Part shown: positions 4,376 to 64,000 of the stretch, piece after piece
How the letters are laid out: the number at the start of each line of letters is the position of its first letter
Numbering within the stretch: position 1 is the stretch's first letter
Source of the DNA: Dermanyssus gallinae
Taxonomy: Eukaryota; Arthropoda; Arachnida; Mesostigmata; Dermanyssidae
Direction: 5' to 3'
DNA length: 64,000 nt
Assembly: GCA_003439945.1 (NCBI GenBank)
Contig: QVRM01005375.1
Span: 1-64,000, forward strand
The notes under the pieces: model-generated
Databases searched by the model: none
Told to the model about the DNA's origin: nothing
Seen by the model: the letters and a program-made list of their open reading frames with translations, nothing else
Position numbers and translations under genes: made by a program

Positions 4376-4995
4376 GGGCTCCGCCGCTCCTGTATTCTAT
4401 CGCAAACAATCTTCCCATTAGCCTCCAGCCTGCAATTTCTTGAAAACGAGACAACTTTGTTTCTCAGTTTAACATACGCTTGACGCCTGCAGGCGTTAGG
4501 GTCACTGCGATACGCCGTATAGGCTGCCTCCTTCTCCTTTATCATTTCAAGCAGCTCGGCAGTGACCCATGGCTTACGTGACCGACCTTTGTTTAACTTT
4601 CGCCTAATTTCTCTTTTGCCCCTAGTCACTGCCGCCATCACTCTCTCGTTAAAGCAAACGCATGCAAACGCCTCGTCTACATCCGAGATATCGTATAAGT
4701 CGTTCCAGTTAGTTATTGTAAGTTCTGCCAATATTTGGTCGTATTTGTATTTATAGGTCATAAAGGCAAGTCGGCCTATTCTCTTAGAGACTACAGAAAT
4801 AAATGTTGCGTGGTGGTCCGAGAAGGTAGTTGTGAGAGCTCCAGATGCGAGTAACGACAACGTCTGCACGTTAGTATAGATGTGATCGATGGAAGTATTA
4901 TATGCGGTTTTTCTACGTATTGTGGTTGCCACCCTGGTTGACACATTAACAACTTCTTTATAGCAGAACTGTTCTAAAGTTTCAATTAAGTGCAT
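4318..4995 (-). pseudogene. LINE copy 1: endonuclease C-terminus and linker
   Basis: 225 residues open. Residues about 35-65 read SIDHIYTN then FSDHHATF, the terminal motifs of an APE-like endonuclease, whose normal role is nicking target DNA for target-primed reverse transcription. A basic linker follows (RKLNKGRSRKPWVTAEL), a stretch typical of the segment between EN and RT in Jockey/CR1 elements. The N-terminal catalytic part of the endonuclease is not in this frame and would lie above 5000. The frame overlaps the RT frame at 4318-4375 in another phase, showing a frameshift at the junction. Confidence 0.75.
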
Positions 4996-5000
4996 TAGAG

Positions 5001-5510
5001 TGTTTCGAAGAGCTCCGATCGACCATTTGGAATGAAGTCCTGAGGAGTGTACATAGATGGTACAACAACGCGATGTGTACCTGTGCCAAAGAACGACGTC
5101 ATCTTGCTCTTCTAAGTCCCAAAGGACGCATGCATTCGTAGCGACCTTTATCTCGGGGATGAGGGAAGATGTCCGCTGGCCATGTGGTGCTCGCGATTTT
5201 TCTTGTTAGGATGTCGGGATGGTCGCCCTTCGTGCCAAACGATTACCCCTGTCATCCAGAAGCCTCTGGCCTCGTTCTCCAGCCAACAGGTCCAGAATGT
5301 GTCCGGGACAGTACAAGTAGCTCCTCTGTCGAGGTAGATGCGTATAGAGCCGTGGATCCAGCTACCGGCGCCAGGAGCTTTTGCTTTGCCTTGGGCACCC
5401 CCGGATCAGAGGTTCCGGATTCTAGCGAAATATCTAAGGAGAGTTGCTTCTGAGAGATCGGTGTCCTGGACTTCAGCCGACCGAAGGCCTTTAGATTAGC
5501 CTGCGTCAAG
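5001..5510 (-). pseudogene. possible N-terminal endonuclease remnant of LINE copy 1
   Basis: Broken minus-strand frames contain RGQRLLD, ATIPTS and VATNACVLWDLEEQDDVV in the order expected between the core and end of an APE-type endonuclease, just upstream of the well-supported copy 1 fragment. A short stretch (a DLLAGER-like peptide near 5270) also resembles the gypsy gag relic near 18.9 kb, so assignment to the LINE is uncertain. The open frame at 5252-5509 on this strand has no recognisable motif itself. Confidence 0.3.
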
Positions 5511-28490: not shown

Positions 28491-29160
28491 TGAGAGCATA
28501 AATTATAAACAAAAACTAAGTACAATTAATATACAAGCTCAGTATGCGTGTCACATAACATAATTTGCATTCTACAGATTTGTAGTCCTACTGCAATTTG
28601 TAACTGGTTGTACACATCTGACACATTAAATTCGTCGTCTACCCTCGTAGTGTTCTGGTGAAAGCGCATGCGGGTAAGATAAGACATAATCTATCCCTTA
28701 AACGGCATCTACAGACCCTGCATGTGCGCTAGTCATCCCAAAGGCTTAAGCAAAGATGTGTATATATAGATATATATAAAGTTTTTCATTTAATTATATA
28801 CAGCTTTATAATTTGAAATCTGGCAATTTTATTCGATAAAACTGTCGTTCTTAGCAGATATACATATCCATTCATCCGGCATAAATTCTGTTTTTCACAA
28901 TTATCACCCTGGTGCTTAAAAATTTAGAAACGGCACCTTTTACATGTTTTTTTTTTGTTTATGATAAAACTGTCTGTTAAGGTGTTCAGAAAATTTAGAA
29001 TAAGAATCGGTTCGCGGTTTGTGCGGCGGCAGGATGGTGCTGTGGGTGCACCAAAGCATCGCTACTATAGTCGTGTTATGGTTCCACCCTTGCTATGTGC
29101 GGGGTAGGGTTGTCATGTTGAAAGTTATTTCCATAATGCCTCTTTGCTTAGTTACGGAAG

Positions 29161-29350
29161 CATCGCTGAAAACTAGGTTTGACAGATGTCATTAGAAGAG
29201 ATTGGTCAATCTAAGCTGCTTATTTGTGCATGTCCTCGGTGCAAGCCGAGATCCGCAAGATTGCTAATACGCGTAAATTGTGTTTGAGACATAGTTGACG
29301 GTGAAGGCCATCTTAAAGTGCAAATGTAATTCTAAAAATGCTTTCAGCTG
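29161..29350. repeat. internal 190-bp direct repeat, first member
   Basis: Starts gctgaaaactaggtttgac and ends cagctgccaaaaatag. A second member, about 95 per cent identical, lies at 30784-30975. In the second tandem copy the pair recurs at about 33042-33231 and 34665-34857. It may be a pair of short LTRs or a simple local duplication; ends do not read TG...CA. Confidence 0.7.
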
Positions 29351-29670
29351 CCAAAAATAGCATCTTTGTGTTGCCCCTGCTGTAAGCCCGCCTCTGACTG
29401 CATACACTGTGTGCGGCTAGAAGCAGCTGCTTTGTAGGCTTGAACCGCACAGTGGTAAAAGTCGAGCACGTGCGCGTTGAGTGCGCGCAGAAGGTGGTCG
29501 CGTCTCACGCTGTTAAAGCGTTTTCGGAAATCGAGCTCGAGCATGGCGATGTCTTCGCTGCAGACTGCACCAACGCCCGGGCCGTAGGAACCGCCACCTC
29601 GGTACCGCCTCGGCACGGCGAATTTCAGTTGGCGGTTACCTTGTAACTTCCTGTCGGGTTGCTTTAACAA
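29344..29670 (-). pseudogene. RLE-type LINE RT fragment (copy 1)
   Basis: A 108-residue frame with MLELDFRKRFNSVRRDHLL near residue 43, RT box A with its Asp, then HVLDFYHCAVQAYKAA and SEAGLQQGQ, the start of box B where QQGD is expected. It resembles the box A/B region missing from the RLE LINE at 41.6-43.4 kb (SASGIQQGDPLGPALF there). It ends before box C. Only a fragment, so inactive. Confidence 0.65.
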
Positions 29671-30783
29671 TCCACCTTACGCTTAATTAGCCGTGAGGTT
29701 CAACCAACAGGCAATAGGGTGAATGGATCCGCCTATTTTTTTAAAACAGCGAACTTTGTGCCAACATTGACGGGCACAAGTTTCGCGGGTATTTCACGAA
29801 GCGATATGTGCTTCAGCGACAGTGCCTGCATTATTAGCTCTCTTCCATGGGTACGATAATTAACATCGTTCACCGAGAGTTTCGTCAAAGAAAGATGAAC
29901 TAGACACTCTCAATGCTCGTGTATCGTGAGCGTATACTTTTCGAATCACAGTTTTGACACAAATAGTGCATTGGCTCCTTCTTCGCGTGACTCCGCTGTA
30001 ATTCTTGACTTTAGTTTATCTCCTGCTTTCGCCATTCATAGTGAGTGTGTGTGTGTAAAAGATTATGTAATACAAATCGTAAACTTTGCACGAAGCTGCT
30101 TAGTTACGTGGCTGTTTCGAATGCCGTAGCATATATAATAATGGCACTTTCAACTGTGTGTGTATATATATATAAATTATGGGATAGGGCAGAGATAATA
30201 CATATATCTGGGAGATGGGATTCGAAGTTACATATCGAACAGCTAGATGAGAAGACAGAGCAAACGTCATCAGGAGGCTGATTCAACTAATCGAACCGCG
30301 TAGAATGGAGGTAGACATACACACAGAGGGATAGAAAGTCATGCGTAGAGAGTGTACTGATGAAGGGTAAAATAGATAACTGGGTGAAGAAAATCAGGGT
30401 ACATGAAGAGAAAACTTACAATGTCCGTGTGGCTTTTGAGGAAGCGGGGGAGTTATGGCTTCTGGCTGCAGAGAAGTGTCCATAGTTTTTACTAGCAACA
30501 TAACAAAGTTTTAGAGATCCATCCCCGTTGGAACTTCTGATGTAAGACTTAACAGGGGCGATATACTCCAATAAGAGTCCGAAAAAATGGACTACATGGC
30601 GAACCTTTTATTAGAAACATTCGATGGCTAATAAACATACTTCAGTACTCTCATATGTAATACGATTACTAACATGGACTAGTGGCGTATAATAAAGCTA
30701 GCAAGGAGATCGTTAACGATATGCCAAGAATTACGATTTAGAGTAAGTGTGTAGAATGGAATGCCTGTTAATGAAGCAAGCAT

Positions 30784-30975
30784 GGCTGAAAATTAGGTTT
30801 GACAGATGTCATTAGAGATTGGTCAATCTAAGCTGCTTATTTGTGCATGTCCTTGGTGCAAGCCGAAATCCGCAAGATTGCTAATACGCGTAAATTGTGT
30901 TTGAGACATAGTTGACGGTGAAGACCAACTTAAAGTGCAAGTGTAATTCTAAAAATGCTTTCAGCTGCCAAAAAT
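30784..30975. repeat. internal 190-bp direct repeat, second member
   Basis: Lacks three bases (gaa in attagaagagatt) relative to the first member and has scattered substitutions. The segment between the two members is 1.43 kb and includes the 29.34-29.67 kb RT fragment. Confidence 0.7.
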
Positions 30976-31823
30976 AGTATGTTGCCGCGCACAACAAATT
31001 TAATAACGAATTGCTATTTGCTATATCCTACACATGCGCTCAGTGCTGGACTGTACACTTCCGCATGGTTTCTGCACTGAGGATCCGTGACACGTGACAC
31101 ATATACACCAAAGATGTGCAGTTGTTCGGTAAAAGTGGCTTCATTCTTTTGGCTCCCAATATACAATTAGTATTAAAGGTTTGTTATTTCTTTGGCATCT
31201 TCTCTACTGTTTAAGTTTTTCAGTTGTCATCGAGCAATGCCTTGGGCAACTTGATTGCGGTTATTGTTATTCCTGCTCTTGTAGAGCACGACTACATTGA
31301 AGGGTTAAGTGACTTATAAGGCTACGGAGTGATGAGGCGATCCGCTTTTTGTACGTGTAACTTACACATTGGACAGCCGCACTAAACGCAATTGCCAACG
31401 TTATTTTTATGTTCATATTTTACTAAAAGAATGTGATATATCTGAATGTATCGTCTGTCATATTGTTATTGACATCGAAGTTTGGATAATTGACTATCGA
31501 GAAATAACCTGGATATTGTCCAAACAGTTAGTTGTCTTGTGCAGTTTCAGTTTTAGAACAGATATTTAGACAGACTTAACTTCTACATTCGCATGTTTAT
31601 GCTCTCATAGTTTCTTGTTGTTAATTTTTATTAAGGCCTTATGGCTGTATGTTTTAATGATATTTTCATATGAGGCACCTTTCGTGTTCCAGTGTTGACT
31701 TGAGATCAATGAGTGGTTTAGTAGCGAACCTTACAGTTCTCAGATTGTGCTTGGTATACGAGAATCTTTCCGACAAGGTCGGTTTTGTTTATTTGTAGTT
31801 CATATATTTATCCATACATTTGT

Positions 31824-32249
31824 CTATGTCCCGTTTTTCATCATTATATCACTTTTATTAAAAAGAGGTATTACAATAGAAGCAAAGTCGTTCCCAGTCT
31901 GTGAACGACGTGCAATCCTCCAGGCAAATGAGTTGTTCACAACGTCCACACGAGGAACCTCGTGAGGGTGAATGTTGACGCCGCTCCGGAGATTATTTGG
32001 TCTTAGAACAAAATACCTTGTAACAAGATTCTGACGCGTTAGCTGTTTAAATATGCGGTAATCGGCGTGGGATTGGTATTCGCTAACACTAGGCAATATG
32101 ATACGCTCGCGTGGTAGACAATACCGACGAGCAACTCGTATCACAAACTTATCCTGCACGCTCTGCAAAAGGTCCACATATCTTTTATAGAATGGCACCC
32201 ATACGTGAGAGTAATAGGTCCACTTTGGTACTACTAAAGTTTGATACAA
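31824..32249 (-). pseudogene. Jockey/CR1-type RT C-terminus (copy 1)
   Basis: A 141-residue frame beginning YQTLVVPKWTYYSHVWVPFY then DLLQSVQDKFVIRVARR. This is the post-thumb region of Jockey/CR1 RTs, in which a PxLxYxxxVWxP block is followed by an xxSVQxxF block. The remainder reads SYWNKV-like C-terminal sequence weakly. No RT core adjoins it, so it is a 3' fragment of a family different from LINE copy 1. Confidence 0.65.
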
Positions 32250-33224
32250 CTTTAAGTGCGCATTATGATCCTATATAATGACAGCTCTGAACGTGACAGT
32301 GATCTCACGGAGGGATCAGCCGAACGCGTTCTTACTGTTTACCAATGGGCCTAAACACTTGAGGTCCACTTTGAGAGCATAAATTATAAACAAAAACTAA
32401 GTACAATTAATATACAAGCTCAGTATGCGTGTCACATAACATAATTTGCATTCTACAGATTTGTAGTCCTACTGCAATTTGTAACTGGTTGTACACATCT
32501 GACACATTAAATTCGTCGTCTACCCTCGTAGTGTTCTGGTGAAAGCGCATGCGGGTAAGATAAGACATAATCTATCCCTTAAACGGCATCTACAGACCCT
32601 GCATGTGCGCTAGTCATCCCAAAGGCTTAAGCAAAGATGTGTATATATAGATATATATAAAGTTTTTTCATTTAATTATATACAGCTTTATAATTTGAAA
32701 TCTGGCAATTTTATTCGATAAAACTGTCGTTCTTAGCAGATATACATATCCATTCATCCGGCATAAATTCTGTTTTTCACAATTATCACCCTGGTGCTTA
32801 AAAATTTAGAAACGGCACCTTTTACATGTTTTTTTTTGTTTATGATAAAACTGTCTGTTAAGGTGTTCAGAAAATTTAGAATAAGAATCGGTTCGCGGTT
32901 TGTGCGGCGGCAGGATGGTGCTGTGGGTGCACCAAAGCATCGCTACTATAGTCGTGTTATGGTTCCACCCTTGCTATGTGCGGGGTAGGGTTGTCATGTT
33001 GAAAGTTATTTCCATAATGCCTCTTTGCTTAGTTACGGAAGCATCGCTGAAAACTAGGTTTGACAGATGTCATTAGAAGAGATTGGTCAATCTAAGCTGC
33101 TTATTTGTGCATGTCCTCGGTGCAAGCCGAGATCCGCAAGATTGCTAATACGCGTAAATTGTGTTTGAGACATAGTTGACGGTGAAGGCCATCTTAAAGT
33201 GCAAATGTAATTCTAAAAATGCTT

Positions 33225-33551
33225 TCAGCTGCCAAAAATAGCATCTTTGTGTTGCCCCTGCTGTAAGCCCGCCTCTGACTGCATACACTGTGTGCGGCTA
33301 GAAGCAGCTGCTTTGTAGGCTTGAACCGCACAGTGGTAAAAGTCGAGCACGTGCGCGTTGAGTGCGCGCAGAAGGTGGTCGCGTCTCACGCTGTTAAAGC
33401 GTTTTCGGAAATCGAGCTCGAGCATGGCGATGTCTTCGCTGCAGACTGCACCAACGCCCGGGCCGTAGGAACCGCCACCTCGGTACCGCCTCGGCACGGC
33501 GAATTTCAGTTGGCGGTTACCTTGTAACTTCCTGTCGGGTTGCTTTAACAA
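33225..33551 (-). pseudogene. RLE-type LINE RT fragment (copy 2)
   Basis: Identical protein to the 29344-29670 fragment, carried in the second tandem unit. Confidence 0.65.
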
Positions 33552-35705
33552 TCCACCTTACGCTTAATTAGCCGTGAGGTTCAACCAACAGGCAATAGGG
33601 TGAATGGATCCGCCTATTTTTTTAAAACAGCGAACTTTGTGCCAACATTGACGGGCACAAGTTTCGCGGGTATTTCACGAAGCGATATGTGCTTCAGCGA
33701 CAGTGCCTGCATTATTAGCTCTCTTCCATGGGTACGATAATTAACATCGTTCACCGAGAGTTTCGTCAAAGAAAGATGAACTAGACACTCTCAATGCTCG
33801 TGTATCGTGAGCGTATACTTTTCGAATCACAGTTTTGACACAAATAGTGCATTGGCTCCTTCTTCGCGTGACTCCGCTGTAATTCTTGACTTTAGTTTAT
33901 CTCCTGCTTTCGCCATTCATAGTGAGTGTGTGTGTGTAAAAGATTATGTAATACAAATCGTAAACTTTGCACGAAGCTGCTTAGTTACGTGGCTGTTTCG
34001 AATGCCGTAGCATATATAATAATGGCACTTTCAACTGTGTGTGTATATATATATAAATTATGGGATAGGGCAGAGATAATACATATATCTGGGAGATGGG
34101 ATTCGAAGTTACATATCGAACAGCTAGATGAGAAGACAGAGCAAACGTCATCAGGAGGCTGATTCAACTAATCGAACCGCGTAGAATGGAGGTAGACATA
34201 CACACAGAGGGATAGAAAGTCATGCGTAGAGAGTGTACTGATGAAGGGTAAAATAGATAACTGGGTGAAGAAAATCAGGGTACATGAAGAGAAAACTTAC
34301 AATGTCCGTGTGGCTTTTGAGGAAGCGGGGGAGTTATGGCTTCTGGCTGCAGAGAAGTGTCCATAGTTTTTACTAGCAACATAACAAAGTTTTAGAGATC
34401 CATCCCCGTTGGAACTTCTGATGTAAGACTTAACAGGGGCGATATACTCCAATAAGAGTCCGAAAAAATGGACTACATGGCGAACCTTTTATTAGAAACA
34501 TTCGATGGCTAATAAACATACTTCAGTACTCTCATATGTAATACGATTACTAACATGGACTAGTGGCGTATAATAAAGCTAGCAAGGAGATCGTTAACGA
34601 TATGCCAAGAATTACGATTTAGAGTAAGTGTGTAGAATGGAATGCCTGTTAATGAAGCAAGCATGGCTGAAAATTAGGTTTGACAGATGTCATTAGAGAT
34701 TGGTCAATCTAAGCTGCTTATTTGTGCATGTCCTTGGTGCAAGCCGAAATCCGCAAGATTGCTAATACGCGTAAATTGTGTTTGAGACATAGTTGACGGT
34801 GAAGACCAACTTAAAGTGCAAGTGTAATTCTAAAAATGCTTTCAGCTGCCAAAAATAGTATGTTGCCGCGCACAACAAATTTAATAACGAATTGCTATTT
34901 GCTATATCCTACACATGCGCTCAGTGCTGGACTGTACACTTCCGCATGGTTTCTGCACTGAGGATCCGTGACACGTGACACATATACACCAAAGATGTGC
35001 AGTTGTTCGGTAAAAGTGGCTTCATTCTTTTGGCTCCCAATATACAATTAGTATTAAAGGTTTGTTATTTCTTTGGCATCTTCTCTACTGTTTAAGTTTT
35101 TTCAGTTGTCATCGAGCAATGCCTTGGGCAACTTGATTGCGGTTATTGTTATTCCTGCTCTTGTAGAGCACGACTACATTGAAGGGTTAAGTGACTTATA
35201 AGGCTACGGAGTGATGAGGCGATCCGCTTTTTGTACGTGTAACTTACACATTGGACAGCCGCACTAAACGCAATTGCCAACGTTATTTTTATGTTCATAT
35301 TTTACTAAAAGAATGTGATATATCTGAATGTATCGTCTGTCATATTGTTATTGACATCGAAGTTTGGATAATTGACTATCGAGAAATAACCTGGATATTG
35401 TCCAAACAGTTAGTTGTCTTGTGCAGTTTCAGTTTTAGAACAGATATTTAGACAGACTTAACTTCTACATTCGCATGTTTATGCTCTCATAGTTTCTTGT
35501 TGTTAATTTTTATTAAGGCCTTATGGCTGTATGTTTTAATGATATTTTCATATGAGGCACCTTTCGTGTTCCAGTGTTGACTTGAGATCAATGAGTGGTT
35601 TAGTAGCGAACCTTACAGTTCTCAGATTGTGCTTGGTATACGAGAATCTTTCCGACAAGGTCGGTTTTGTTTATTTGTAGTTCATATATTTATCCATACA
35701 TTTGT

Positions 35706-36131
35706 CTATGTCCCGTTTTTCATCATTATATCACTTTTATTAAAAAGAGGTATTACAATAGAAGCAAAGTCGTTCCCAGTCTGTGAACGACGTGCAATCC
35801 TCCAGGCAAATGAGTTGTTCACAACGTCCACACGAGGAACCTCGTGAGGGTGAATGTTGACGCCGCTCCGGAGATTATTTGGTCTTAGAACAAAATACCT
35901 TGTAACAAGATTCTGACGCGTTAGCTGTTTAAATATGCGGTAATCGGCGTGGGATTGGTATTCGCTAACACTAGGCAATATGATACGCTCGCGTGGTAGA
36001 CAATACCGACGAGCAACTCGTATCACAAACTTATCCTGCACGCTCTGCAAAAGGTCCACATATCTTTTATAGAATGGCACCCATACGTGAGAGTAATAGG
36101 TCCACTTTGGTACTACTAAAGTTTGATACAA
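35706..36131 (-). pseudogene. Jockey/CR1-type RT C-terminus (copy 2)
   Basis: Same 141-residue frame in the second tandem unit, offset 3882 because of one extra T upstream. Confidence 0.65.
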
Positions 36132-36253
36132 CTTTAAGTGCGCATTATGATCCTATATAATGACAGCTCTGAACGTGACAGTGATCTCACGGAGGGATCA
36201 GCCGAACGCGTTCTTACTGTTTACCAATGGGCCTAAACACTTGAGGTCCACTT

Positions 36254-36911
36254 TGCACAAAAAGTAGTTTAATACTGTTTGTATAAACAGTTTGGCGTTG
36301 TCTCTGTCGTCTCCGTAGTTGGCTCTGTTGTACTGATTTCTTGTGTGGCTGTTGCGAATGACAAGTGATGGCCGGAGCGGTGGCCATGACCGACCAAACA
36401 AAGAATCCGATTGTTCCGACGTTTTTCCGGCTAAATGAGCGACTGCCTAACTTACCCGACCCTTGCTGTGGTCATCAATAATCACAGTCTCTAATATTTG
36501 CTATAGAAAATGCGGACGACATCAATAGATGCCCTGGGAAGAGAGGCGGTGTACGAGGCGGTCGCACCTCAACTTAACCGACCACCGCCAGAAAGAAGGC
36601 TTTTCGAAACTCATAACGCTTTCGGTGATTCACTTGTCCTTGGCGAAAGGCTCAAATGTATATCTACGATTCTGGAATGGATTCGTTCGCTTTTTATCCT
36701 GATTAATCTCGCACTTAGCAATGCGAACAGTCAACGAGGAGTAAAAGGCAGTTGGACAGCAGCTAAAGCCCATGTGCTAAGCTCACAATAACGATTTGAT
36801 CCTCCTTTGATCATCTCGGTTGTTGCTGTCACCATTTCTCCACTACTAATGTCCTTTTCAACGCTTTTTGCACAGTTCTCGAACACTCACTTTATCTAGG
36901 CCTTATATTGT
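36254..36911. other. unassigned sequence
   Basis: A plus-strand 93-codon frame at 36510-36791 has no recognisable motif. Confidence 0.4.
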
Positions 36912-41589: not shown

Positions 41590-43392
41590 TCACGGCGTTG
41601 CTGCTCGTCGACCTAGTTGCTCCTTCTGCGCGCCGTAGCCGCTCTGTCGCTCATGCCCGTGAGGAAGTCCTGCCCGCCCCCTGGCGCGAAGGTCCGGGTC
41701 CATCCAGTCTCTCATAGTTCCGAGCACTGAGGTCGCGTTACCTCTTTGGATCTCCAGGGACAGTCGCTCGGAGAAGAAGGCGTGCGCCCTCTTGTCTATC
41801 GTCGCCTGCCGTAACGCGTCGCCAACCCGAGAGATCAATGTTACCGTGAGGGGCCCAGGGCCTCCCATCGTCTCGAACGCGAATGGCGAAAAGTGGTGCG
41901 CCCGACTTAGGTCCGCATACTTTCTTATCTTTGAGGTCTCCGCTCGCGAAACGGCAGTCCCCGGGCGGGACGCGCCGGGACCGACAAGGGAAGGGGTCAG
42001 AGAGTCGGTCACCGTCGCATCCCACATCAGGAAACGACCCTTATAGAAGGGTATCAAAGTCATACCGTCGGGGCGCTTACCGTCGTCTCTTGAAAGCCCA
42101 GGTGGTTCCAGGACGCAGGGAATTCCCGCCCTCCGCAGCGATCTTGCAAGCATTTCATTGAGGGCAGTGTGTCTTGGGCGCCGGCCCGCTGCGTGAGCGC
42201 AAGACAGGCCGTGTCTGGCGAGTCGCCCGACGGGCTCGCCACAAGAGCATCTGTGTGGCTCAACCAAATCAGCCCCCAATCTCAGGCCAACGCATATCCG
42301 GGTGGATTGGTCATCAAGGCGGGTACCCAGTGAGTCAGCGGGTACTGCGTGCAACCAGTCGCTTGCTCCTGGGCGAGCGACAGCTAGAAGGCGTGCCTCG
42401 TCCTGGTCATCCCCGCATTCTTCAAGCAGCGAACTAAGCAAAGCTTCGTGGGCCTTCTCGGCCCAGGCCCTCTGGCAGGCTAGCCTATCGGTACCAGGCG
42501 ATGAAGCTTGAAGTCCAGTCGCTATATCGTCACGAGCCGCCTCGAACATTGCCTGGGCCGCCGGCGGGAGCAGGCGCTGGACATTTTCCGACGTAGCATG
42601 CATCGAGGCAGCCACGGCCGGGCCCGCCAAGGATCGAGCCGAGGGGAGACCAAGGCCGCCCATGGACGTGGGAAGGGCCGCCTGGCGCACCTCTCGTGGT
42701 CGTAAGTTTAGACTCAGCACCGTCTGTAGGGCCTCCATCACCTAGTCGTCGAATGGTTGGAGAAGATGGTTCAAATCGCCTGAGCAGTCTATGGACCGTA
42801 AAATATGTACGATACGGCACGCGGAGAACGACGAGCGAAGCAGGTAGAGTCCCTGGTGGGCTCCAATAAGCGGAAGACGTTCCTGCATCGCCCACAATCT
42901 GTCTATCAAGGGGTCGAGTTGTCCCGGTAACGCAGAGGGCAGAACCGGTGCGCCAAGGAGGTTTATTTCGTGGTCAGCCACGACTCTACACCCCGGTAGC
43001 AGCTCGAGCAAGGCCCTCAATGAGAAGTCGTCTGGGTCTGTCCCCGGAGCGAACACCTCGCATTTGGCCGTGTTCAGCACCAGATAACTGACTGCCTCGA
43101 AAGCAAGGACTCTGCGCACCTCATCGAGCAAGTCCACCATCGGTCCACCAAGTGTGCCATCGTCTAGGTACCAAGCGTTGAATGGCACTTGAACGGAGTT
43201 AACCAGCTTACGAATCCCCAGGCTGAATAGGGCCGGTCCCAAGGGGTCCCCCTGCTGTATGCCCGATGCCGAAAATAACGTCTCGGCGCCAAACAACAGG
43301 ACGGATGGCTCTTTGTACGCGTGTTCTACTAAGGTGAAGAGTTCCGGGACTGTATCCCGAACCGCACGAAGGAGGTGGCAGTAGAAGGGCAT
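41590..43392 (-). mobile_element. RLE-type LINE (R2/R4/Hero group), 5'-truncated, one stop
   Basis: A single frame of about 600 codons broken only by one TAG at 42742-42744. The first part (43392-42745) has GIQQGDPLGPALFSLGI (RT box B) and NAWYLDDGTLGG (box C, catalytic LDD intact). After the stop, residues about 165-181 form a zinc knuckle-like motif (CSCGEPVGRLARHGLSC), then KRPDGMTLIPFYKGRFLMWD, which fits a PD-(D/E)XK restriction-like endonuclease. Box A and the N-terminal DNA-binding fingers are missing by 5' truncation. The near-intact frame implies a young copy. The exact clade is uncertain. Confidence 0.8.
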
Positions 43393-43599
43393 GGCAGCTT
43401 TTGCTTCAAAAAATATCAGTTAAAATTCAACGCGCAAACGCCGCGTCGATAATGGGATCATTGCCCACGGGCAAGGGACTTCCATTTCCGCCGTAGCCAA
43501 ATCAAGCCGGCGCCAAAAATAATATGTGCAGTTAAAAAACCCAAATAAATATATATGCTATTTAAAAAAAACATGTCACTAGCCTCCTGGACCGTGCTG

Positions 43600-53699: not shown

Positions 53700-54720
53700 A
53701 GAGGATGACGGCGCCCGAGCTCCCTAAAGATGCAACGTCTCTTCAAGACAAGGACCTCCTGGGCTAGGCACTGCTAAATGCCAAGGTCCTTTTGAGCTCA
53801 AGGGTGGTGTACCGTGTCAAGGAGACCAATGCACTGCCACATGACAGAACATTTTGTCATGTGGTTGCTTCCTGTCGATTCCTCCAAACAGAGAAAAGTC
53901 GGCAAACACCGCGACCCGGGCGGGGGCAGAAAATGGCAAGAAGAGCGTTCCCAGCACGACAGCAACCTTCGTTCTAAAGAAGAAAGAACGCGAGACCTAC
54001 ACAGACTTTATTAGGGAGCTGGGTTTCAGGATGGACCCCAACTCCCATAGCGTCATTGCACATTCCGTCCAGTAACTGTCCAGCGATAACGTGTGGCTCA
54101 TAGTGGCAAAGGCGGCAGAGGGAAAGGCAGCGTCTTTCTCGAGACCCTGAAATCCGCCAGGGTCGGACGCCGTCGTGACGGACGCTAACGTGAACCTTTC
54201 ATCCCTAAGGCGGCTTCTCATCAGCGACGTCATGAAGGGCACCACCTAACATGAAATCAAGGAGGCCTTCAGCAGGGCGTTGCCTCTCGAAGGACCACTG
54301 GCAGTTGTTCCCCACAAAGGGAAGCGAAGCGGCCAGTGGACGTCCCTGGCCCGAGCGCTCGAGTGGGGCACTCTGCACTCTCGGCAGTTAGAGTCAAGCG
54401 CTGCTATAGGTGTGGGGCACTGGGGCACATCTCCAGGAAATGCATGGCGACCGTAGTCAGCTTCAACTGCGGCGACAAAGGGCACGCAGCCAACGTCGCC
54501 GCCTGTCCGAGGTACAGAGAGCAACCCGAAGAGCTCCGTAGCACCCGCGCCACCCCCCACGGGGCCAGCCCCAAACCCTGCCCCCGTGCCAGCCGTTTCC
54601 GAGGGCCATCCCAGTAACGCTGCGGGCGCCGAGGGCTTTCCCCCTTAAAGAAGCCGCAAGAAAGTACGAGCATCACCCCCTATGGACCCCCGGGCTTCAA
54701 AGGCATCTAACACGCAATTA
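53700..54720 (+). pseudogene. R1-like LINE ORF1 (gag) relic with zinc knuckle
   Basis: Plus-strand frames give KSVPSTTATFVLKKKERETY near 53940, AKAAEGKAASF near 54105, and KRCYRCGALGHISRKC near 54390 (CX2CX4HX4C). A second knuckle follows as SFNCGDKGHAANVAAC, whose first Cys is replaced by Ser. Two adjacent knuckles near the C-terminus are usual for ORF1 of R1/Jockey LINEs. Frame changes near 54075 and 54250 break it. No RT follows, so it is a 5' fragment. A link to the R1 tail at 52.73 kb is unlikely because the tail lies upstream. Confidence 0.65.
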
Positions 54721-56118: not shown

Positions 56119-56276
56119 GGAATACAGTCCAATAGAGGCGATGGAGCTTCGCGTCGATAATCAAACGAAAGACTCGGGTGGGACTGTGACGGTGGCCACC
56201 AACGGATCGGCACCGGCTGCCTCACTGCTTGGGGCCGCCTGTCAGGAGTTCAAGGTTCCCATGGATCCTCGACTTG
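56119..56276 (+). CDS. exon 1: 5' UTR end and first half of ubiquitin-like domain
   Basis: Acceptor tttttttttgactacag at 56118; donor CTTG/gtacg at 56277. The frame stays open 5' of ATG 56141 (EYSPIEA), so an upstream coding exon cannot be excluded, but MELRV at 56141 fits the first beta-strand of a ubiquitin fold. Residues 1-45: strand MELRV, turn, strand GTVTVATNG, helix SAPAASLLGAACQEFKV, then PMDPRL, which mirrors the ubiquitin order IPPDQQRL. Ends in phase 1. Confidence 0.7.
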
Positions 56277-57436
56277 GTACGACCCTTTTTTAACACACAC
56301 ACACACACATACATATCTTTTATACCGGTCACTAGGAACGCATCCAGCAATCCTACGCGCCTATACGTATATATATATATATATATACGTACATTTAGTG
56401 TGGCAACACTTTAAGGTTTTGTGTGATTAACTATTCATAATCTTGAGCTAACTCTCTAGGCTGTCCCTCATTATGCCTATTATTGCTGCCCTGCCTAATT
56501 ACCGCGCTCACCGGCCAGTCATTGCCGCTGAAGTAGATAATCAAAAGCTCTTACCTCCTCTCTCGCCAGTTCGATTCGTTTGCCAATCTTCTGCAGAAGC
56601 GACCATCACAGCGAGAGTTGAGGGCATTTGGCTATTCGTTCTGTGTGTGGCTTCGTGGTGTGTGGCTTCGTGTCTGTGTAACGCACCTATATATCTATAT
56701 TTTAATAGTATATCTACTAAGATCTACTCAAACTCAATCCACTACAAACTACTCAAATCTACTCAAACTCAATCCACTACAAACTACTCAAATCTACTCA
56801 AACTCAGTATGCTTAAACCACCGCTCACTATATTGGCCAATAAAATGCTAGCACAGTGGTGGTATGCTTGGGTAACACAAGAAAAACTAGCAAATTCTAT
56901 AAGTTACTGGTATTTTAGTATGTACAAGTGATGACACAGTGAGTAAAATATATTTTACCTTGCATGGAGTTCTAAAGACCTAAAATTATTTTTGGCGAAT
57001 AATGGCAAATTCCAGTGCTTCCTTTTAAGCTAGGCTTTGTTTCGCTGGTTTTAATACGGCGGTTTCTAAAAACGTTATTAAAGGTCGGTCCAGTTAAAAT
57101 AGTTCTCGTATTGACTTTGTCAAAATAGACGGAAGTCGGCCCATATAATCAGATACGAATAGTTGAATCACTACAACGGTAGGTATGCAAGTACTATCTA
57201 AAGATTTTCAAAGGCCGTTTGATTACTGTACGATCCTTGGCAGCATGCACATTGTAGGAAAATGATGTATTTGTTTTATAGGGCTCTACACAAAAAACAA
57301 CGTTATGCTCTCAGATCGCAAGACGATTACGGACTACGGCCTGAACAACGGGGACACCGTCTACCTCAGACCGAAAAGTAAGCATATCTGAGTTTCCACT
57401 CTGCGTCAACTTAATGTACGTTATCTCTCTATCTCC

Positions 57437-57522
<86 letters not shown>

Positions 57523-60069
57523 TTTTAATATAAACTAATTGGTATCTAAAACGTTTAATGGCAATATTCCAACATAATAATATTTTCCCCCATTTCATAG
57601 CAACCAGAATCAAAATAATTATATTTTGGAGTAATCTCTGGCAAACGTGTGATCGCATGTTGTCTAACCTGGATTTGGTCTGATTCAATAATGCCTCATA
57701 ACCGATGCTGCTTTTGTACGAGTGTATCAAGTGACAGCCTCTGGCGTTAAAACGCTAGTGATCTCGAACCTCTGGCGGAAAGATTAAGTCTTTTGCTTAC
57801 GCGCTGAATTACAAAAATTAACTTATGTGTAAAAACGCCGGGGTCTCCCATCACTGTCTCTAAACGGACAGACAAAACTCGTGTGTATAGGTATTTATTG
57901 AGTATTTCCTGCACTTGTTTGCGCTTGATAGTCTGGGAACGTGACCTGCATGGTTGGCATTTACCCCCGACCATCGAATACTCTGATGAATCGGTTGCAG
58001 TTGCATCCCAAGAGGTGTGCGGTCACGCTCAAGAGGGCTTTAAGTAAGACCCTTAGGTCCTATCTTATCGTCTCTGGGGATCTTCGGGTTGCAGTATGCA
58101 TGAAGCCTTTAGATGATTGTATGAGAGTAACGCGAATGACGTTAAAGTGGCGCAATATAGTGGTGTGTTGGATGGTAACCATTATTTGCTTCTTTCTCCG
58201 TTGTATTGATTGTTTCCACTTCAGGGGAAGGTGACGACCTTCTTTTCCTGTTGAACTGGCGCGTTTTAGCCATTGTACTATTACTGATCTCGATTGTCGG
58301 CCTCATCGTACTGATCAGCATATACGCAGCGACTGCTGGCCGGGCCCCTTTCATTGTAAGTCTGCACCACACCTGATTATACCACACATTTTCGGGCAAT
58401 ATGACGGGGGTACCCATACGATACGTTGCTTCAACTTATCTCGACTCTCGTAAAGTATAACTTAAATAACCTAAACGCACGCATTTCCAACGCAACCTGC
58501 TCACTGAAACCTTCAAGTGAGCTTATTTTTTCAAGTTTGATTAACAATTGGTCTAGTTAGTTGAGGCTATTATACGCGTATAGCCGTCGCTCGCAGACGC
58601 AACTCGTTCTGCAAAAAAACAAGAACATCGAAACATTCCGTCTGAACAAAATATTCAACCACACTATTGAAACGGGTTTGTCTTTGTTTATATAAAAAAT
58701 AGTATTGTATTAGAAGTGTAAATACTGCTTATTTTTTGGTATTTGCACAAAAGGATCAACATCTATATTCAACCAAAGTGTCAACACTAAGCAAGCCGAC
58801 CGCCATGTTATGATTTTTATATCTCTCCGCCTAGTCCGTGTGTTTTACTAGCTTTGCATGATATTATTATATAATAGTCTTTATAATATACACTATACGG
58901 AGCGTTGCATCCCTAACTTTTCACTTAGATTATAAAGCGCTTTATTTGCCCTTTGCCTACGACCAGCAATAAATGTTGGCACAGCTATGTTCCCAACTTG
59001 CGGGACTCGTTGACTTAATTGCCTTAAGAAACGCGCTGTACATCCGCTACTTGGTTCGAATGTTTGTTTCTAGCGGCAGTCGAGCGACGTAGCGGAGATA
59101 CAGCGCGCCTAAAGGACAAATGTGTCGTGTAATATCATGTGAATACAAGGTAGTCATTTTCAGTATTTTGCCATATTTTCGGTGTTAGTTTGTTTATCTA
59201 CTCAGCCATTTTTAATTGCACTTCAACGAACGTGAAGAGCGACGTAGATTGCGCAGAGCAAGCGCATGCATATATGCCTATTACAATCTACAGCGGAAGT
59301 TCACTGCTGGTTCTGGCTTGATCATCAATGCTGCCCATTAGACACGGGACGAGACAAATTGTTCCGGACACCCATGCCAACAATGTGATTAGTGAAATTA
59401 AACTAAAAGCAAGGGTCGTACTGGGTGATAACAAATCTATTTGACGGCCGAACTTCGTATAATAACAGCCGAATTCTATGCTGAGATTAGTTTCCTTTTA
59501 GAGCGGCAGGTCGAGATCGTGCGGATAGGATGGCGCTTCCCAAGAAGCGGAAGTCAGAATAGCTTCTTCTATGGCCGTACATATCATGTAGTATGCACAA
59601 TTTACTAACAGCGACCAATTGTCTGCGGCAAAGTTTTGTTGAAATAGAGCTCTAAATAGAAATGGAAAGGCGATTTTTTTTAATTTTATTCTGCTCTGAC
59701 TGGCCCAAAAGGCTATGCTGCAAACGTTGATTTAGCTGCATAGGTATGCAGCAGTCCGTCAACAGATTATCAAGACTACAGAGACATGCAAACGAATATT
59801 TCAACCGTCAGTCGACCGCTCTCCTTACCAGCAAACTGGCAAGGAGCGAATGGCTTTACCAGCAGTATGGCGGGAAGGTCCTCCGTTTCGTAACTACAAT
59901 AGCATGTTTGTGTGCCAGCGGTTAAACACGAAGTCTATGTCGATACGCAGACAAGAAAACGATTTGACGTGCCGTCAACAAGCGTACTAGTCAAGCAGAC
60001 TAAAGAAGCCGCATGCGGCGCCATTCAAGGTCACGATATCGCTCTAGTCAGCACCATACACAAGCAATT

Positions 60070-60114
<45 letters not shown>

Positions 60115-60313
60115 GGATACATGTCAACATGTTCTGATGTACATATGATTGTACGTGTACGTATGGTCATTACTATATATGTACATACATATATAGCTCC
60201 AGCTATAATATATATGTATATACATATATAGTACGCAGCATTATTATTTCTTAATATTTATACGTATGCGAGTATAAAACATAATTATGCACGTGGACAC
60301 ATAGCCGTAGCTG

Positions 60314-60402
<89 letters not shown>

Positions 60403-63400
60403 AGACAATGTTTGTACCGCATAGCCGTCATAAACGCGTAGCCATGGCCGTTGGCAAATAACTAGGATCGTTTGCGGAGCGAAATTGCGGTTTTCTGCAA
60501 GTTTACATTGTAATAGCATTTGTGGCGCTTGCGGGGCACTGTGAGCTTTAAGTATGCACTAACTTTAAGATATCATGCGATATACTTCTTGGAAGCCCCT
60601 GGAAGAACGGCTAGCCCTATTGAGCAATTTCATTTGTTGAACCGATTCACACGTTGAAGCATTCGTCAAAAGGGATTAGACGTCCATTTGGCGTAGTGTG
60701 TAATACGCTTTGTTTAACGGCAAACTCACACATCATATAAATAATCAATATTAAATTACCATTGCGTAAATTGCAATGATGAAATGATTTTTCTATAGGC
60801 AGTGACGTCCCTAGTTGTCATCTTGATTCTATATACATTTGCACAGAAAATATTCTCGATTATCTCTCTTTCCCGCTTCCCCCTTCCCTTTCTCTCTCTC
60901 TCTGTGTCAATATATTCGCGCCTGTATGTGTGCGTGAAGAGTATAGCTGTTGTTCTGTACGAAAAGCAACTATACTCTTATGGTCGGCGTGAGTGTAAGC
61001 AGCAATTATTAGCAGCGTTAATAAGATAAGTGGCCTGTGTACGTATTCGTTGTGTGTTACCGACGAGCGCTGAAGTTGGTTGATCGCATTGAGCGCATCG
61101 CAGCTCATTGCCGCTTCCGGAATCTGCTGTCTGCGGGCGAACGCCCTTTCTGCCTCCATTTCTGATTCATACATACACATAGTGTTTATTTGCTGGCGGA
61201 AGTATACGACGCGGCATGCATGCGTTTATCCGTCCACGGCTGCCGTCATCAAATAATTGCCGGCACTGTCCCACGTCAATGACTAAGTGCTACATACGTA
61301 GCATAGCATATATCGACTTATCCACCCAACTGCAGGCGTCTAGAAGATCTTGAATGTAGCTCCATGTAAGACAGGCAGTGCAATCACGCAATCACACGTA
61401 CATCGTACGTTCGACAGTCGTCAACGAGTTTGATCGGCTGCCGTTAATGGTTGTGCGGTCACCTGTATGTGTCCTCGTATGTGCACGAATGCATTTTGAT
61501 CCCCGGGCACGTTTCATATATATGTATATATATATATATATTTAGGCGAGCACTGCCGAGTGTGCAAACGTATTGTAAATGATTAATAAATCATCACAAT
61601 ATTTTCTATATATATATATATATATTTACTCACTTTGCACTTTATCATTTAAAACTGTTTGTTTTACCCTTCCCAACACGCCTAAATCTCCCATAGATCT
61701 ACATGTACACAGCTTTAAGAGATGACTGGGCTCTGTTCATACATTCTCAAGGAATGTCTTGCTGCGTTTAGTTTGACCAAAAGAGCACATGCGGCAGAGT
61801 AGATTACTCTCTTCTGCTCCCCAAACTGTAACACCTAGGTATCCACATCCGTACAGTGCAAAGGGTGAGGGCATTTTTAATCGACCGTCACTTTCAAATA
61901 AAGATTGTTGGTAAACCTAGCCGGCCATATCCTGCTCTATTCCTCCCTCTGTACACAATTTTTGCTTTGGATATAAATGAGTAACTGCCATTAACTTCAA
62001 ATGTTTCGAGTATGCAGATGACTTTGAACTTCATTATCCTGTTTCTCAACTGACTCTCATGATGTTCTGCAGGTGGCTGTCGACGGCATTGTTCGATGAT
62101 GCTCTGAAAATAATCTGATTCCCTCACTCTCCAAATCATGGAGTACTGAATTTCGACTCTAAAATTAGTAAATGCATGTTTATCAACGTTTTTCTCATAC
62201 ACGTGCCGAGCCATACGTATTACGGCTGGTCTTTATTTCAGCCTTCACAATACCAAGGTTGTGGAGGCACCACAACGACTTGTTAATAGCATCCTCCACT
62301 GCTCCATTCTAACGACTCCTCATGTGTATATTCGCCTTTATACATTTCTTGTTCTTCCAAAACCTACATATTGCTCCTCTGCCTGGGAGCCTTATTTGAT
62401 CATACAACAGAAAGTTAGGGGAAGGCGTTCAAGACACGTCAAGTGCCTGGCGTTCAGGGTAAAGAGTGTTAACTGATGCTGTTCCTGCTATATATTCACT
62501 TTTCGCTTAAGTCAACATACCTGCTCTACGTCAATTAACCAAATGTGAATTGCTCGGACATGTTTTGATGTACGCTTCAAGAACCCAAGGAGCCCTCCGA
62601 TCAATCGCTTCAAAATCTGTGGCCCGTTTTAAGTTTGTAATTGGATTGTCTGCCTGGCGAATGGCCAAGCGGGCGTATGCAAACTTAGATAGTAGTCAAC
62701 AATAAGTTACGATAAGTTACGTTCTTCTCTCAGAAGTACGCATACTGGAAACAACATTGATATGACCATGATAAAATGTATTACACACCCCGTTTTGTGA
62801 TAACAAAGGTGATTTTATGTTTATATAATAAAATCTATTTTATGCATTAAGGTCGTTATGCCCCCGATGCCACTGGCAAATCCTTTAAGAACTTTTTAGG
62901 CATATTAAAACAACTAACATGGGAAGAGCGTTATTACTGGCTAAAGGAGATAGATGTTATTGATGTAAGATCGTTTCTAATTGCACCATTCTCTGTGACA
63001 AAGTACGGTGTTGTGATCGATGCTGGCTCGTCACACTCCGAGGCGACGCTCTACTATTGGCATGGTAGCAAATACTACGGCACAGGGAAGGCTGAACAGG
63101 TACGTTTTCAGACGTCTATTTTGTAAAAATCAGATATCATCATACATTTACTTTAATTGTTAGTTAAAATTAGCTTGACTTTAGCCTTAGCTTTTGGATA
63201 TCATATCCGTCTGCTTGATGTAGATATAACTAGCCTCGCATGACCTGCTTTTAGTAAGTTGTTTTTATGACGCTATAACCCACAAATAACGTGGCGTGGG
63301 TTTTTACACAAACCTCGAATTCTGCTAGCCTATCACCATACCAATCAAATATTTGGTTACTTTCGTAAATATAATAGATTATTGTGTTATAAGAGCGAGC

Positions 63401-63654
63401 CTGCTGTAGATAGTATATCAAACTCTGTATCAATCGCAATTTTTATCTAGATTAAATATTGCCTACCTGTGTAGGCTCTACACTGCGCTAAACATACGCC
63501 ATATGCCTACCCCAAATTACTGTTATTATCGAGTTTAGTAAGGTGATCGTCCTTAATCAATAAATTCACTCCGAATAGCTAATATTCTATACAGTTAGTG
63601 ATAATTCTCAGTGGCCCGCATTGAAATCCTAAATATAAAGACCTACACTTGTAT

Positions 63655-63735
<81 letters not shown>

Positions 63736-64000
63736 TATTCTAGGAACAATTAAGGGCATAATTTTTCGCTCATGCATTTGTAGGTACGTATTTATACAAA
63801 TATAAAAAATCTATTTCTATACAATTTGACGAAACACGTGTTAAGCTCATCTCTTCATTATTTATACTTCCGCTCGCTTGGTTATTATTGTGCACGTTTT
63901 GGGTCCGCTTTTTCTGTTCTCTATCATCAAACAGGTTGCTCATGCCGAAACTGACGCAGCAGGCATTTCGGAGATGCGGCCGCGTGAGGTACAGCGCTCC
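56119..64000 (+). CDS. ubiquitin-like domain/TM/NTPDase (CD39 family) gene, 3' end outside window
   Basis: Five supported exon pieces: 56119-56276 (ATG at 56141), 57282-57377, 58225-58355, about 62852-63099, and 63935 to the window edge. Phases between exons 1-2 (1), 2-3 (1) and 4-5 (0) fit. Predicted order: ubiquitin-like fold 1-77, short acidic linker, TM helix about 91-112, variable stalk, then apyrase conserved region 1 (GVVIDAGSSHSE). CD39/GDA1 enzymes hydrolyse NTP and NDP to NMP outside cells or in the secretory lumen. The exon 3 to 4 join does not keep phase at the best acceptor (62852) and needs another acceptor or a small extra exon. Two adjacent genes remain an alternative. Four more ACRs would lie beyond 64000. 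Confidence 0.6.
56277..57281 (+). other. intron 1
   Basis: Contains (CA)n near 56295, (TA)n at 56368-56387 and a 35-bp tandem repeat at about 56700-56806. No recognised coding sequence. Confidence 0.6.
56700..56806. repeat. 35-bp tandem repeat in intron 1
   Basis: About three copies of a unit built from aaactactcaaatctactc and aaactcaatccactac. Confidence 0.85.
57282..57377 (+). CDS. exon 2: second half of ubiquitin-like domain
   Basis: Acceptor ttgttttatag, donor AAAA/gtaagc, phase 1 to phase 1. Residues 46-77 read GLYTKNNVMLSDRKTITDYG then LNNGDTVYLRPK. The closing pattern (short loop, Leu-rich turn, xxTITDYGLxxGDTVYL) corresponds to ubiquitin [20 protein letters not shown]. There is no C-terminal Gly-Gly; the chain continues into a membrane helix, so this is a built-in fold, not a processed modifier. 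Confidence 0.7.
57378..58224 (+). other. intron 2
   Basis: Includes a (TA)n tract at 57440-57517; nothing else recognised. Confidence 0.6.
57440..57517. repeat. (TA)n microsatellite
   Basis: 78 bases of alternating AT. Confidence 0.95.
58225..58355 (+). CDS. exon 3: linker and transmembrane helix
   Basis: Acceptor tgtttccacttcag, donor ATT/gtaagt, phase 1 to 0. The split codon gives Arg78, then EGDDLLFLLNWR and a strongly hydrophobic stretch VLAIVLLLISIVGLIVLISI (about 91-110), then YAATAGRAPFI. Arg90 on the N side and no charge until Arg117 fit a signal-anchor with cytosolic N-terminus, as in NTPDase N-terminal anchors. Confidence 0.75.
60074..60111. repeat. (TA)n microsatellite
   Basis: 38 bases of alternating TA. 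Confidence 0.9.
60313..60399. repeat. (TA)n microsatellite
   Basis: About 87 bases with one ca interruption near 60324. Confidence 0.95.
60799..60988 (+). CDS. speculative extra exon
   Basis: The stretch from acceptor gatttttctatag to donor CGGC/gtgagt is open in phase 0 and ends in phase 1, exactly the phases needed to join exon 3 to the 62852 acceptor. It would start AVTSLVVILILYTFAQ, a second hydrophobic segment. However, half of it is a C/T-rich tract typical of introns, and a second membrane span would put the catalytic domain in the cytosol. I regard it as unlikely but phase-consistent. Confidence 0.15.
61690..62740 (+). mobile_element. LINE relic, family Y, in intron 3
   Basis: Homologous to 8.06-8.40 kb, where both read acatgtacacagc-like sequence, then tttgaccaaaagagc and the RT box A region, and to 13.80-13.88 kb. 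Near 62005 the frame gives EYADDFELHYP, an intact box C. Near 62345 it reads FLVLPKPTYCSSAWEP, the post-thumb block. It ends with a short C-terminal region near 62680. Stops throughout. Same sense as the host gene. Confidence 0.65.
62852..63099 (+). CDS. exon 4: stalk and apyrase conserved region 1
   Basis: Donor ACAG/gtacgt is strong. The start is uncertain: acceptor ttttatgcattaag at 62851 needs an incoming phase 1, whereas acceptors at 62889 (tcctttaag/AAC) and 62899 offer phase 0 and phase 1 starts. The frame reads RYAPDATGKSFKNFLGILKQ, a stalk WEERYYWLKEIDVIDV, then TKYGVVIDAGSSHSEATLYY. DAGSS is the ACR1 phosphate-binding loop shared by all GDA1/CD39 NTPDases. Ends in phase 0. Confidence 0.85.
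63100..63934 (+). other. intron 4
   Basis: Contains a (TA)n tract at 63659-63733; no other feature recognised. Confidence 0.6.
63659..63733. repeat. (TA)n microsatellite
   Basis: 75 bases of alternating TA. Confidence 0.95.
63935..64000 (+). CDS. exon 5 (partial, runs off window)
   Basis: Acceptor ctatcatcaaacag, phase 0. Encodes VAHAETDAAGISEMRPREVQ and continues. In vertebrate CD39 the equivalent place has a short acidic/Cys stretch followed by a GIS motif; the AGIS here fits. Remaining apyrase conserved regions are beyond 64000. Confidence 0.8.

Follow-up and report, generated by a model that had tools for sequence, protein, structure and literature searches.

A CD39-type ectonucleotidase gene of the mite Dermanyssus gallinae with a predicted cytosolic ubiquitin-like domain that recurs in chelicerates and bivalves

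The stretch of Dermanyssus gallinae DNA analysed here (the window: bases 1-64000 of contig C5368, which has 1,476,289 bases) holds the beginning of a gene that almost certainly encodes, as judged from its sequence and from a structural model, a two-pass membrane ectonucleoside triphosphate diphosphohydrolase (E-NTPDase) of the CD39 or NTPDase 1-2-3-8 type with a ubiquitin-like (UBL) domain at its N-terminus. The gene extends past the window end. With the DNA beyond included, the complete model has nine exons with GT-AG borders and a single open frame of 591 residues, of which exons 1-4 and the first part of exon 5 lie in the window (Table 1).

From this one locus, the initial annotation had proposed a CD39/GDA1-family gene preceded by a ubiquitin-shaped domain and one transmembrane (TM) helix, and most of its exon structure stands. 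The first three exons have GT-AG borders and join in phase to give 121 residues, VVIDAGSSH of apyrase conserved region 1 (ACR1) is present, and the exon start at 63935 is borne out. Exon 4 had to be redrawn: as originally drawn (62852-63099) its frame needs one base from the preceding exon, whereas exon 3 ends in phase 0, and we rejected it since the join to exon 3 meets a stop after 15 codons. The true acceptor, aag/TAC GGT, was placed at 63004 by comparison with paralogous loci on contigs C1958 and C4940. In both of these the exon 3/4 border is in phase 0, and exon 4 opens with the Tyr-Gly directly before ACR1. In the Varroa destructor homologue (P0004) the sequence spanning this junction is APFI-YGVVIDAGSSH. 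With the acceptor set by the paralogues there is no need for a further exon to bridge the 4.5 kb gap, and a 51-codon open stretch just upstream of it (GRYAPDATG...), which has no counterpart in the paralogues or in Varroa, was taken as intron.

The enzyme part is assigned to the CD39/GDA1 family, as first suggested, by a match of residues 122-533 to the Pfam family GDA1_CD39 (PF01150) far above its gathering cut-off (215.2 bits against 24.9; E 1.7e-63). All five conserved regions are present (ACR1 124-134, ACR2 198-208, ACR3 237-250, ACR4 272-286, ACR5 515-526) and align without gaps with those of the vertebrate enzymes. A hydrophobic segment precedes ACR1 and another follows ACR5 (hydropathy windows above 1.6 at residues 80-119 and 537-569), giving the protein the N- and C-terminal TM helices that mark the E-NTPDase 1/2/3/8 subgroup. 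When the Varroa homologue (590 aa) was modelled with AlphaFold2 (23 aligned sequences; mean predicted local distance difference test score, pLDDT, 86.7), the helices fell at 89-114 and 541-586, and the best Foldseek match of the model is rat NTPDase2 (4cd1, E 4.6e-34). The ectodomain between the helices is predicted to hydrolyse extracellular nucleoside tri- and diphosphates; this enzyme part should face outside, which would put residues 1-78 in the cytosol.

The ubiquitin-fold domain comprises about the first 77 residues and is followed by one hydrophobic helix (hydropathy peak 92-110). Profile searches, the Varroa model and structural matches agree on the ubiquitin fold. The modelled Varroa domain has a beta-beta-alpha-beta-beta topology superposable on ubiquitin, and its best structural matches are ubiquitin, SUMO, NEDD8 and ISG15, at 15-20% identity or so. 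Unlike these modifiers, the mite UBL runs on into a TM helix and has no free C-terminus. There is no GG in the linker of the window protein, and a GG pair between the last strand and the TM helix occurs in only two of 22 UBL rows (P0005 and P0090), never as a free end; we therefore consider the UBL to be a fixed domain and not a modifier. The spacing between UBL and helix is about 12 residues in the Varroa model, and this linker varies in sequence and length between rows.

Matches of single UBL sequences to Pfam all fall below the cut-offs. The ubiquitin family PF00240 scores 15.0 bits with the UBL-TM part and 13.2 bits with the full-length protein (gathering cut-off 25.4), and is matched at E up to 1 by six of 22 UBL members (best 0.0075). 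The best Pfam score of the window UBL is with UN_NPL4 (17.5 bits against a cut-off of 21.9; E 0.0058) and that of the C1958 UBL with TUG-UBL1 (17.3 bits against 23.3; E 0.0053), while over all 22 UBLs the commonest sub-threshold match is YukD (13), ahead of UN_NPL4 (four) and TUG-UBL1 (three). A profile built from the UBLs retrieves poly-ubiquitin chains with E down to 3.2e-20, values that are summed over repeats of about 8 bits each, and our assignment relies instead on the fold and on matches to chains with one domain (5zew, E 3.5e-6). The profile also picks up talin F1 domains (E 0.0007); by itself it therefore indicates a ubiquitin fold and not kinship with ubiquitin.

That both parts belong to one protein, the central claim of the initial annotation, is upheld by the in-frame junction of exons 3 and 4, by the paralogues and by Varroa P0004. 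The latter, filed as 'ectonucleoside triphosphate diphosphohydrolase 2-like isoform X3', carries everything from the UBL through ACR5 in a single chain and is 66% identical to the nine-exon product over 100% of the query; 60/78 UBL positions are identical (76.9%) against 274/412 in the ectodomain (66.5%). Searched alone, the short UBL-TM part retrieved three exon-1 pieces only, and residues 1-121 were found in a full-length frame in Varroa P0004 only. In other species, unbroken UBL-TM-NTPDase frames occur on contigs about 1.8 to 3.6 kb long, whose size suggests that they are probably spliced transcripts. None of the refuting conditions named in the initial annotation was borne out where it could be checked, the modelled Varroa domain among these checks having a ubiquitin fold.

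The exon order recurs at the two paralogous loci (the mite genome was searched over 958,664,175 bases in 7160 contigs). C4940 has exons 1-9 in the order of the window gene. C1958 has exons 1-7 in that order, and no exon 8 or 9 was found in the stretch examined, to 45000. The phases of the exon 2/3 border (phase 1) and the exon 3/4 border (phase 0) are common to all three loci; the exon 1/2 border is in phase 1 in the window gene and in phase 0 in C1958 and C4940. The conserved motifs of C1958 are altered (ACR1 EVGASY for DAGSSH, ACR2 ATEGMG for ATAGMR, ACR4 SLALSGASA for AMDCGGAST), and if this is not an assembly fault it is likely to be a pseudoenzyme that keeps its UBL and TM exons. A further copy on C3441, of the C1958 type and close to the contig end, has exons 1-3 only; where the two were compared it matches C1958 at about 94-96% identity, with a one-base length difference in exon 1, and it is probably the other haplotype. 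Two other GDA1_CD39 matches lie on C6360. The first has the ACR1 sequence FDAGSTGSR, which we take to be of ENTPD5/6 type, and no UBL match was found near them in the stretch 50001-90000.

The architecture read from the single locus is not an oddity of that locus, being found in many chelicerates and in bivalves. The homologue set (120 listed of 169 found, from 7998 candidates scored) favours sequences that have words in common with the mite protein. The UBL was called at a profile E-value of at most 1e-3, which 25 of the 120 listed homologues reach. The weakest positive has E 8.9e-22 and the best of the other 95 has 0.51, a gap that partly reflects the seed, since the profile was seeded with most of these families. 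Eleven of the 25 are named (Varroa, Rhipicephalus, Dermacentor, Tachypleus, Tropilaelaps, Centruroides, Galendromus, Parasteatoda, Ylistrum, Mizuhopecten and Solemya) and the other 14 were placed by the tree described below. The bearers thus span mites, ticks, a spider, a scorpion, a horseshoe crab and bivalves including scallops; they are filed under ordinary enzyme names, and the precomputed Pfam entries of all 25 give PF01150 only. Among the 120, no row from vertebrates, schistosomes, rotifers, fungi or choanoflagellates has a UBL, several of the vertebrate rows being N-terminally partial. A profile from the 16 chelicerate-type rows alone recovers the four bivalve-type UBLs of Solemya (1e-9), Ylistrum (2.2e-9), Mizuhopecten (2.3e-8) and P0090 (1.4e-6), as well as P0031 (2.8e-12) and P0027 (3.1e-11). 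The reverse profile, from four bivalve-type rows, recovers Tachypleus (P0014, 2.3e-9) and P0005 (9.9e-6).

In a tree built from the ectodomains of 51 rows (19 of the 25 UBL homologues, 30 labelled as lacking a UBL, the window protein and C4940; midpoint root), the UBL label changes five times, and none of 500 shuffles gave a number as low. Left out were P0026, whose ACR1 was missed by the motif search, and the near-copies or fragment P0007, P0008, P0009, P0012 and P0018. The bearers form a chelicerate group and a bivalve group, not one clade, and the branch parting chelicerates from the rest is weakly supported (80/61). P0019, P0024 and P0092, labelled as lacking a UBL, fall within UBL clades and look like N-terminal truncations or alternative isoforms; the chiton P0086, without a UBL, adjoins the bivalves. 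Because of the weak branch support and the midpoint root, the tree fits two origins as well as one that was followed by losses. A single origin is favoured, to which the profile match between chelicerates and bivalves points.

Table 1. Exons of the window gene, paralogous loci and other features (positions on C5368 unless another contig is given).
Feature	Position	Strand	Content	Basis or comparison
Exon 1 (coding part from ATG)	56141..56276	+	First half of UBL, MELRVDNQ...DPRL	Homologous exon in P0001-P0003, Varroa P0004
Exon 2	57282..57377	+	Second half of UBL, GLYTKNNVML...VYLRPK	Paralogous exons at C1958, C4940
Exon 3	58225..58355	+	Juxtamembrane segment and first TM helix, phase 0 end	Paralogous exons at C1958, C3441, C4940
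Intron 3	58356..63003	+	About 4.6 kb, TM exon to ACR1 exon	Borders fixed by paralogues' phase-0 junction
Exon 4	63004..63099	+	YGVVIDAGSSH (ACR1) at start, 32 codons, phase 0 both ends	Paralogues, Varroa protein
Exon 5	63935..64101	+	ACR2; first 66 bases within window (63935..64000)	
Exons 6-9 (beyond window)	64331-64499, 64603-64809, 65177-65314, 65634-66269	+	ACR3, ACR4, ACR5, second TM helix, stop	
C4940 exons 1-5	Exon 1 near 395619, 2 395320, 3 394560, 4 392356, 5 391560	-		
C4940 exons 6-9	Exon 6 390026, 7 387443, 8 385648, 9 in two pieces from 384974 and 381678	-		
C1958 exons 1-7	Between 21306 and 42601	+		
C3441 exons 1-3	3498-5014	-		
C6360 GDA1_CD39 matches	59325-62152 and 80329-85368			
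Direct repeat	28491-36255 (copies 28491-32373, 32372-36255)			
CCHC zinc knuckle frame	54255-54617			
Reverse-transcriptase-like frames	3719-4396, 42742-43419	-		

The rest of the window contains traces of mobile elements and one large repeat. A retroelement-like open frame about 1.5 kb upstream of the gene encodes a CCHC zinc knuckle (Pfam E 6.3e-7), and two reverse-transcriptase-like frames (RVT_1, E 4.6e-4 and 1.4e-5 in the order of Table 1, both below the Pfam cut-off) are identified by sequence likeness as retroelement remains. The repeat consists of two direct copies that adjoin each other, each about 3.88 kb long, with 99.9% identity across 3885 columns; either the segment was duplicated in tandem very recently or the assembly is at fault here.

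Integral-type ubiquitin-fold domains usually bind proteins. Predicted to be tethered on the cytosolic side about 12 residues before the first TM helix, the UBL could act as a fixed docking module for cytosolic scaffold proteins or for proteins that bind ubiquitin or UBL domains, and partner binding would then determine the amount of enzyme delivered to the surface and retained there through sorting, endocytosis and turnover. We put forward this trafficking role tentatively, with a confidence that falls a little short of even, and we rate control of surface residence or turnover by partners above both a direct effect on activity and p97-mediated degradation. For the explanation as a whole, gene and docking role together, our confidence is evenly poised.

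A quality-control or degradation module, in which recruitment of p97/VCP or the proteasome by the UBL would shorten the life of the enzyme, is an unlikely alternative. HERPUD1 and similar membrane UBL proteins are made short-lived in this way by their cytosolic UBL, and the ubiquitin fold itself would suit such a role, as would the sub-threshold likenesses of the window and C1958 UBLs to UN_NPL4 and TUG-UBL1, which are presumably UBLs of p97 cofactors. Against this, the prevalence of YukD among the sub-threshold matches means that the family leans to no one class, and vertebrate relatives manage without a UBL. Control of activity across the membrane, whereby the UBL, alone, paired or bound to a scaffold, restrains the first TM helix and tunes the catalytic rate, strikes us as quite unlikely. 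The short distance between UBL and helix would be consistent with it, and a passage of PMC6788384 reports that N-terminal palmitoylation and the membrane anchors of CD39 matter for full activity and that CD39 binds RanBPM, but the linker through which any restraint would act varies in sequence and length.

Several observations weigh against our preferred reading of a docking domain on an NTPDase of the 1/2/3/8 type. With the bivalve-type profile, Varroa P0004 scores 0.042 and many mite and tick rows only 0.03 or worse. In nine comparisons with the mite protein, UBL identity is ahead of ectodomain identity in two and behind in seven (scallop against mite: UBL 15/78, 19.2%; ectodomain 130/404, 32.2%), and in four other pairs it is ahead in two and behind in two. 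Conservation does not consistently favour the UBL, and one universal partner is therefore not implied. Set against P0070, the scallop isoform record P0092 (Pecten isoform X2) begins immediately ahead of the TM helix and has no UBL; an enzyme without the UBL may thus also be made, and P0092 hints at alternative first exons that switch the domain on or off. Vertebrate NTPDase 1/2/3/8 ectodomains share ten conserved cysteines, a trait of the subgroup that does not define the family, whereas the mite ectodomain has cysteine 277, inside ACR4, and eight outside it (316, 346, 364, 393, 406, 414, 458 and 483), the first pair being missing. Finally, a C-terminal tail could carry sorting signals instead.

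The low long-range identity of the UBL and the scallop isoform would also fit an inert spacer or folding aid kept by drift. We consider this very unlikely, given that fold, position and reading frame persist from mites to bivalves, that one genome keeps the domain at three loci, including a catalytically degenerate one, and that in several close pairs its identity equals or exceeds that of the ectodomain. It is scarcely credible that the locus comprises two neighbouring genes, a small UBL-TM protein (exons 1-3, read through six more open codons of the intron to a stop at 58374) and an NTPDase that begins with a first exon of its own somewhere from 58.4 to 63.0 kb, for despite the length of intron 3 and the frame conflict of exon 4 as first drawn, the corrected exon 4 joins in frame, Varroa and 24 other listed homologues keep both parts in one chain, two paralogous loci keep the order and the phase-0 exon 3/4 junction, and an NTPDase without exon 3 would lose its first TM helix.

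Extending the docking reading further, it is conceivable, if doubtful, that the UBL-NTPDase is an old protostome form of CD39 that predates the split of arthropods and molluscs and is never, or no longer, found in vertebrates. Its cytosolic UBL would link extracellular purine clearance to the ubiquitin-recognition machinery, an inside-to-outside control of ATP signalling; alternative first exons could give forms with and without the UBL, and a degenerate paralogue may keep only the docking function.

Among the titles listed by literature searches, which left most subscription papers outside, none describes a UBL joined to an NTPDase, CD39, apyrase or ectonucleotidase, and a term search of the main text of a mite life-cycle transcriptome study (PMC8028124) found no mention of apyrase, NTPDase, ectonucleoside or CD39. 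By this title-level measure, a conserved cytosolic UBL on a known enzyme family, in chelicerates and bivalves, is undescribed.

Among known systems, integral membrane proteins such as TMUB1/TMUB2 and HERPUD1 have in common with the mite protein a cytosolic UBL joined to a membrane anchor; they are linked to the endoplasmic reticulum and have no enzyme ectodomain. UN_NPL4 and TUG-UBL1 offer the best single-sequence Pfam resemblance, below the gathering score, and we know of no membrane anchor or nucleotidase domain in these families. E-NTPDases 1/2/3/8 (the CD39 group) have the same two TM helices, ACR1-5 and ectodomain fold. E-NTPDases set extracellular ATP and ADP levels and thereby purinergic signalling, and on the basis of the vertebrate enzymes their cytosolic side is regarded as a short tail. 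The mite UBL stands where the vertebrate rows have that short N-terminal tail, so that a folded, conserved domain at this position would provide an unlabelled route for cytosolic control of the enzyme in chelicerates and bivalves, and its presence or absence a natural comparison for the function of the CD39 N-terminal tail.

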